This document shows, piece after piece, positions 15,514-15,606 of a stretch of 64,000 nucleotides of DNA. The position numbers and the translations under genes are program-made. The number at the start of each line of letters is the position of its first letter. The stretch's first letter is position 1. Under the pieces are notes generated by a model. That model saw nothing but the letters and a program-made list of their open reading frames with translations, ran no database searches and was not told where the DNA came from. This stretch comes from Nitrosopumilus sp. b3. GTDB taxonomy: Archaea; Thermoproteota; Nitrososphaeria; Nitrososphaerales; Nitrosopumilaceae. The stretch is from NCBI RefSeq assembly GCF_014078525.1, contig NZ_MU078693.1, positions 186,001 to 250,000 of the forward strand, in the 5' to 3' direction.

Positions 15514-15606
15514 GGGCTTGTGGCGCAGAGTCATTTTGACGCGCAACATGGATAGCGCAGTAGCCTCCTAAGTTACAGGTCGAGGGATCGAAGCCCTCCA
15601 AGCCCG
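15514..15606 (+). tRNA. tRNA-Arg (CCT) with an 18-nt D-loop intron
   Basis: Exon 1 is 15514-15528, intron 15529-15546, exon 2 15547-15606. Joined exons give a 75-nt tRNA: acceptor GGGCTTG/CAAGCCC, D arm GCGC-AGCATGGATA-GCGC, anticodon stem GTAGC/GTTAC with loop CTCCTAA (anticodon CCT), T stem GAGGG/CCCTC and discriminator G. The intron sits between nucleotides 15 and 16. A bulge-helix-bulge is visible: helix GCGC (15523-15526) with GCGC (15541-15544), bulges AGA and AAC, inner hairpin GTCA-TTT-TGAC. The T-loop ATCGAAG departs from TTCRANY at position 54. No CCA is encoded. Confidence 0.9.
15529..15546 (+). other. tRNA-Arg intron (non-canonical position)
   Basis: Predicted from splice-endonuclease geometry: cuts AG^A after 15528 and AA^C after 15546, each after the second base of a 3-nt bulge. 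Its 3' half contains a copy of the D-stem strand GCGC, which competes with the true D-stem partner at 15555-15558 until the intron is removed. Confidence 0.8.

Follow-up and report, generated by a model that had tools for sequence, protein, structure and literature searches.

The exon-intron border of archaeal tRNA introns falls between the second and third residues of the bulge (PMC4307357), and the D-loop has been named as a place of both canonical and relaxed bulge-helix-bulge (BHB) motifs (PMC6379350). For the D-arm intron of Sulfolobus tokodaii tRNA-Glu, the cut sites have been verified in vitro with recombinant enzyme, and a missing outer helix has been described in Aeropyrum pernix tRNA-Lys (PMC4307357). 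The splicing endonucleases of Thaumarchaeota are of the alpha2beta2 type, and relaxed motifs are among the substrates of such enzymes (PMC4090602, PMC6379350). The BHB model of tRNAscan-SE 2.0 was trained on Thaumarchaeota, and 107 non-canonical introns are reported for this group in the description of that program (PMC8450103). The D-loop intron described below is present in the tRNA-Arg(CCT) gene of a Nitrosopumilus genome.

The gene was read from the sequence of a 64,000-nt stretch of the genome (the window, the numbering of which is used throughout) and occupies positions 15514-15606 of the + strand, as do all the features listed here; whole-genome searches found no second Arg(CCT) copy in this Nitrosopumilus genome, so that 15514-15606 is the sole one found. 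The 5' exon (15514-15528) consists of the acceptor strand GGGCTTG (15514-15520), TG, the D-stem strand GCGC (15523-15526), A14 and G15. The intron, AGTCATTTTGACGCGCAA, is 18 nt long (15529-15546), interrupts the tRNA at position 15/16, shows BHB geometry and is missing in intronless orthologues. The 3' exon (15547-15606), which is recognized from the sequence, from the Rfam tRNA match and from its conservation among relatives, opens with the remainder of the D-loop, CATGGATA, and the 3' D-stem strand GCGC (15555-15558), followed by the anticodon arm (15560-15576; loop CTCCTAA, with the anticodon CCT at 15567-15569), the T-arm (15582-15598, GAGGG/CCCTC), the acceptor strand CAAGCCC (15599-15605) and the discriminator G15606. 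When the intron is removed, a normal tRNA is restored, and the spliced 75-nt form folds as a cloverleaf. The T-loop of this tRNA, within 15582-15598, is ATCGAAG (A54, G60), compared with the usual TTCGAAT; this variant is conserved across the Arg(CCT) genes of Nitrosopumilaceae and is also found in other tRNAs of the same genome, for example, Arg(TCT), Arg(TCG) and one Met(CAT).

Before splicing, the 5' D-stem strand GCGC (15523-15526) is the exon strand of a 4-bp helix, H, whose intron strand is the GCGC at 15541-15544; after splicing, its partner is 15555-15558. On either side of H lies a 3-nt bulge, AGA (15527-15529) and AAC (15545-15547), respectively, and the published border rule places the predicted cuts between residues 2 and 3 of each, AG^A (15528/15529) and AA^C (15546/15547), which are also the borders in the intronless orthologues, where GCGCAG is followed directly by C or T and then ATGG. 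Inside the intron, the hairpin h' (GTCA-TTT-TGAC, 15530-15540), with 4 bp, folds alone and covaries among relatives. The motif is a relaxed HBh' rather than the strict (canonical) hBHBh'. The first-pass annotation, made from the letters of this stretch, had already called a relaxed form but described the outer exon-exon helix h as weak; in fact, h is absent here, and no run of outer pairs is present in any of the 95 intron-containing genes considered below, so that it is essentially absent in all of them. When the 18 nt were shuffled 200,000 times with their composition preserved, 1.2% of the shuffles gave a fitting 4-bp H helix, 2.2% gave a 4-bp hairpin and 0.02% gave both. The window contains the interrupted D-arm pattern once, and shuffled windows do not contain it at all. 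The comparative evidence for the intron is stronger than this evidence from shuffling.

The orthologue set was assembled by whole-genome searches and one scan of named genomes, and comprises 108 distinct genes, with Nitrosopumilus, Nitrosopelagicus, Nitrosarchaeum, Nitrosotalea, Nitrososphaeraceae and Nitrosocaldus among the groups represented. Comparison with related genomes had been suggested in the first-pass annotation as a check, and it yielded 95 orthologues with an intron at the same site and 13 precisely without it. The 95 introns, from Nitrosopumilaceae and Nitrososphaeraceae, are 14-31 nt long. Most Nitrosopumilaceae Arg(CCT) genes contain the intron, as a rule with 17-21 nt; the introns in the Nitrososphaeraceae genes that were recovered by a pattern-based, incomplete sampling span 14-31 nt and have a quite different sequence. 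The D-loop intron is missing in Nitrosocaldus, in several deeper families and in scattered Nitrosopumilaceae. The 13 intronless genes, among which are those of Nitrosopelagicus species and of Nitrosocaldus, lack the insert precisely at the predicted junction (the exact absence was recorded, for example, for orthologues L031-L037 and L101-L104) and read ...GCGCAG(C/T)ATGGATAGCG..., that is, the predicted spliced form. The Nitrosopelagicus-type intronless allele reads GGGCTTGTGGCGCAGTATGGATAGCGCA at the junction and is one base off the predicted mature tRNA; in the nearest intronless gene, from genome G155, 1 base in 75 differs from the predicted spliced tRNA. The initial assignment of an 18-nt intron to 15529-15546, at 15/16, thus proved exact. 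Apparent intronless matches in five other genomes (G026, G030, G120, G348 and G368) were discarded as pattern artefacts, given that the introns concerned end in GCGCAG and were seen once the loci were read.

The same comparison bears on the suggestion that the 93-nt RNA is used unspliced, with its D-loop enlarged to 28 nt as in the precursor. Inserts of 14-31 nt with paired ends at a single site, their exact absence from orthologues and the presence of splicing enzymes in the genome all argue against such use, which we consider extremely improbable. The intron is old, being common to Nitrosopumilaceae and Nitrososphaeraceae, and has been precisely lost a few times. From its distribution among these sequences, we infer one gain after the split from Nitrosocaldus and several precise losses; as an alternative to a shared origin, the intron may have been gained independently in Nitrososphaeraceae. 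In two deeper families, the Arg(CCT) genes L115 (genome G075) and L113 (genome G085) have no D-loop intron but contain a 37/38-like insertion at the anticodon loop, so the order also includes cases in which this gene is interrupted at a different position.

Both helices of the motif leave a trace in the alignment. Of the 228 cells for the first three pairs of the intron hairpin (76 distinct introns), 221 are paired, compared with a mean of 169.5 and a maximum of 184 after partner shuffling, an excess that is inflated by relatedness, and up to five standard pair types are found at one hairpin pair. In six distinct introns of the Nitrososphaeraceae type, h' is down to 1-2 bp. The introns of L244, L259 and L271, with only 14 nt and a hairpin of 1-2 bp, are near-minimal HBh' introns. 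The exon side of H doubles as a D-stem strand and hence hardly varies, being GCGC in 94 of the 95 genes. The sole exception, L020, has a change of C13 to U and of the intron partner to A, whereby GCGC/GCGC becomes GCGU/ACGC (GCGT/ACGC in DNA); H remains complementary, and a G-U pair results in the mature D-stem. The inner three pairs of H (nucleotides 11-13) are formed in all 95 distinct genes. These invariably formed pairs and the compensatory change in L020 bear out the earlier proposal that the intron GCGC at 15541-15544 pairs with the 5' D-strand. The pair between nucleotide 10 and the intron is present in only 47 of the 95, so three H pairs are evidently enough; in about half of the distinct genes, the fourth pair is lost (GCGA) while the D-stem still has four pairs. 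An association between this weakening of H and G-U pairs in the D-stem was suggestive, but is confounded by descent. An origin of the intron from a direct repeat, GCGCAR being present at both intron ends, was also considered and found to be uninformative: GCGC is self-reverse-complementary, so that a repeat-like appearance follows from the H helix itself, and the L020 intron keeps the complement, ACGC, rather than the repeat.

The repeated motif complicates both the placement of the borders and the recognition of the gene. GCGCA occurs twice, at 15523-15527 and at 15541-15545, so that removal of, for example, 15523-15540 or 15527-15544 could be envisaged and some borders could be ambiguous if judged from cDNA alone; the intron copy of GCGC is also the one that Rfam picks. 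Such alternative borders are nevertheless very improbable. The upstream GCGCAG is nearly invariant (GCGC in 94/95 and AG in 95/95) and agrees with the intronless orthologues, whereas variants are seen in the intron copy (GCGA, GCGT, GTGC, ACGC; followed by AA, AG or AT), and an A15 in place of G15 would spoil the expected G15-C48 pair. Nucleotides 14 and 15 are AG in every gene, with the intron (95 of 95) or without it, whereas the last two intron bases are AA in 76, AG in 17 and AT in 2, which favours the junction 15528/15547 over shifted ones. The tRNAs of the genome were collected with the Rfam model RF00005, which matches this locus partially, over 15536-15601 only and with 31.2 bits, because the model mistakes the intron GCGC for the 5' strand of the D-stem. 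Its match to the intronless G155 orthologue, from which the present gene differs in the 18 nt and a single base, spans the whole model and reaches 57.9 bits. ARAGORN reports no tRNA at 15514-15606. The gene shows why finders that have no archaeal intron model miss or mis-start such genes in common marine and soil archaea.

The machinery that would process this precursor appears to be encoded in the same genome. Two EndA-family genes are present, predicted to encode one catalytic and one non-catalytic subunit of the splicing endonuclease. The 178-aa protein aligns full length to the crenarchaeal chains 2cv8 and 3p1z, with a His in DHAPF and a Lys in VRKQ, and we interpret its GYYGKPIG..KPK segment as the Crenarchaea-specific loop that carries a lysine; no aligned catalytic His is present in the second protein. 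An RtcB ligase gene is present as well. We are confident that tRNA-Arg(CCT) contains a non-canonical HBh' intron at 15/16 that would be spliced by the two-subunit endonuclease and RtcB. In the proposed pathway, the 5' D-stem strand of the precursor would pair with the end of the intron, producing the 4-bp helix between two 3-nt bulges; the two-subunit endonuclease would then cut at 15528/15529 and 15546/15547, and RtcB would ligate the exons. The freed 5' D-strand would finally pair with 15555-15558 to form the normal D-arm, and the open state of the precursor D-arm would be a by-product of the position of the intron, a part of the reading in which we place the same confidence.

The first-pass annotation proposed instead that the precursor is a folding switch. 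The competition for the 5' D-strand is real, in that three GCGC strands compete with one another: in addition to the two alternative partners of the 5' strand, the intron GCGC is paired with the 3' D-strand in a third form of the ensemble, creating a decoy D-arm. The computed energies, with the tRNA body held fixed, are -30.9 kcal/mol for the BHB form and -29.0 kcal/mol for the D-stem form with the hairpin, a gap of 1.9 kcal/mol that is model-dependent, and thermodynamic folding of the precursor without constraints gives neither the BHB form nor the cloverleaf. Competition of this kind arises because any H helix placed beside a tRNA stem yields it, and a regulated switch is unlikely to follow from it; the small energy gap, the third pairing and the count of 47/95 for the outermost pair of H make the switch doubtful. 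One could suppose that the intron is kept as a checkpoint, with the H helix holding the D-arm open until splicing and the timing being important, for example, for the action of archaeosine transglycosylase on G15. G15 is the second nucleotide of the 5' bulge, a TGT-family gene is present in the genome, two families have retained the intron, and ArcTGT opens the D-arm of its substrate to the lambda-form (PMC11298593). However, the two forms differ little in energy, H is weakened in about half of the 95 distinct genes, the placement of the BHB motif alone explains the competition, and the intron was lost without a trace in several species, so it is dispensable. We therefore regard such a role as improbable. 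It is slightly less probable still that both families of ammonia oxidisers have retained the intron at 15/16 because an open D-arm orders maturation, for example, by offering the bulged G15 to the archaeosine enzyme ahead of exon ligation. The preferred reading remains that of an ordinary spliced intron.

Further candidates for non-canonical introns were found in tRNA genes outside the window. In the same genome, the initiator tRNA-Met gene L305 (G000:C1:43814-43907) contains a 15-nt D-loop insertion, GGGAAGCCAG[ACTAATTAGGGCTAG]GTCATCCC, with an HBh'-like pairing AGCC/GGCT; the exact empty form, GGGAAGCCAGGTCATCCC, occurs in many congeners, so the insertion is a probable D-loop intron. ARAGORN gave no match at this initiator tRNA-Met locus. 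Among relatives, the initiator tRNA-Met genes L309 (G013:C1:1969260-1969335) and L325 (G066:C1:1277339-1277401) show a second interruption 3' of the anticodon arm and are probable two-intron genes; in L309, this interruption lies in the T-loop, after AGTAGTTCAAAT. The tRNA-Val(CAC) gene L273 (G000:C3:49957-50051) is extended in its variable region, around GGGAATAATTCCCCGCAA, by what is probably a non-canonical intron. With these probable introns in initiator tRNA-Met and tRNA-Val(CAC), the Arg(CCT) intron would be one of several non-canonical introns in the genome.

The Arg(CCT) intron provides a dense comparative case in which one intron site is followed across two archaeal families while sequence and length changed, and in which natural precise losses and a compensatory change back the splice-site structure. 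The location in the D-loop, which had been singled out as notable, is less so, since D-arm introns and introns that lack the outer helix have been published for Crenarchaeota (PMC4307357, PMC6379350). The exact Nitrosopumilus Arg(CCT) intron was not found named in the main texts of open-access papers; it is probably already in tRNA databases. Position 15/16 is not among the examples given in the text of PMC4090602 (20/21, 22/23, 25/26 and others, closing with 'etc.'). The D-arm introns of crenarchaeal S. tokodaii tRNA-Glu and A. pernix tRNA-Thr(UGU) likewise form BHB-like motifs inside the D-arm and are cut by the crenarchaeal EndA, but interrupt other isoacceptors, in hyperthermophiles, and the border in S. 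tokodaii tRNA-Glu is near nucleotide 25 rather than at 15/16 (PMC4307357). The HBh' introns of Marck and Grosjean likewise combine an H helix, bulges and h' with no outer helix (PMC6379350, PMC4090602). The thaumarchaeotal introns reported with tRNAscan-SE 2.0 are of the same clade and intron class (PMC8450103), and the Arg(CCT) intron very likely belongs to that set of 107. Compared with these systems, the intron is of an ordinary kind, but unusually conserved.
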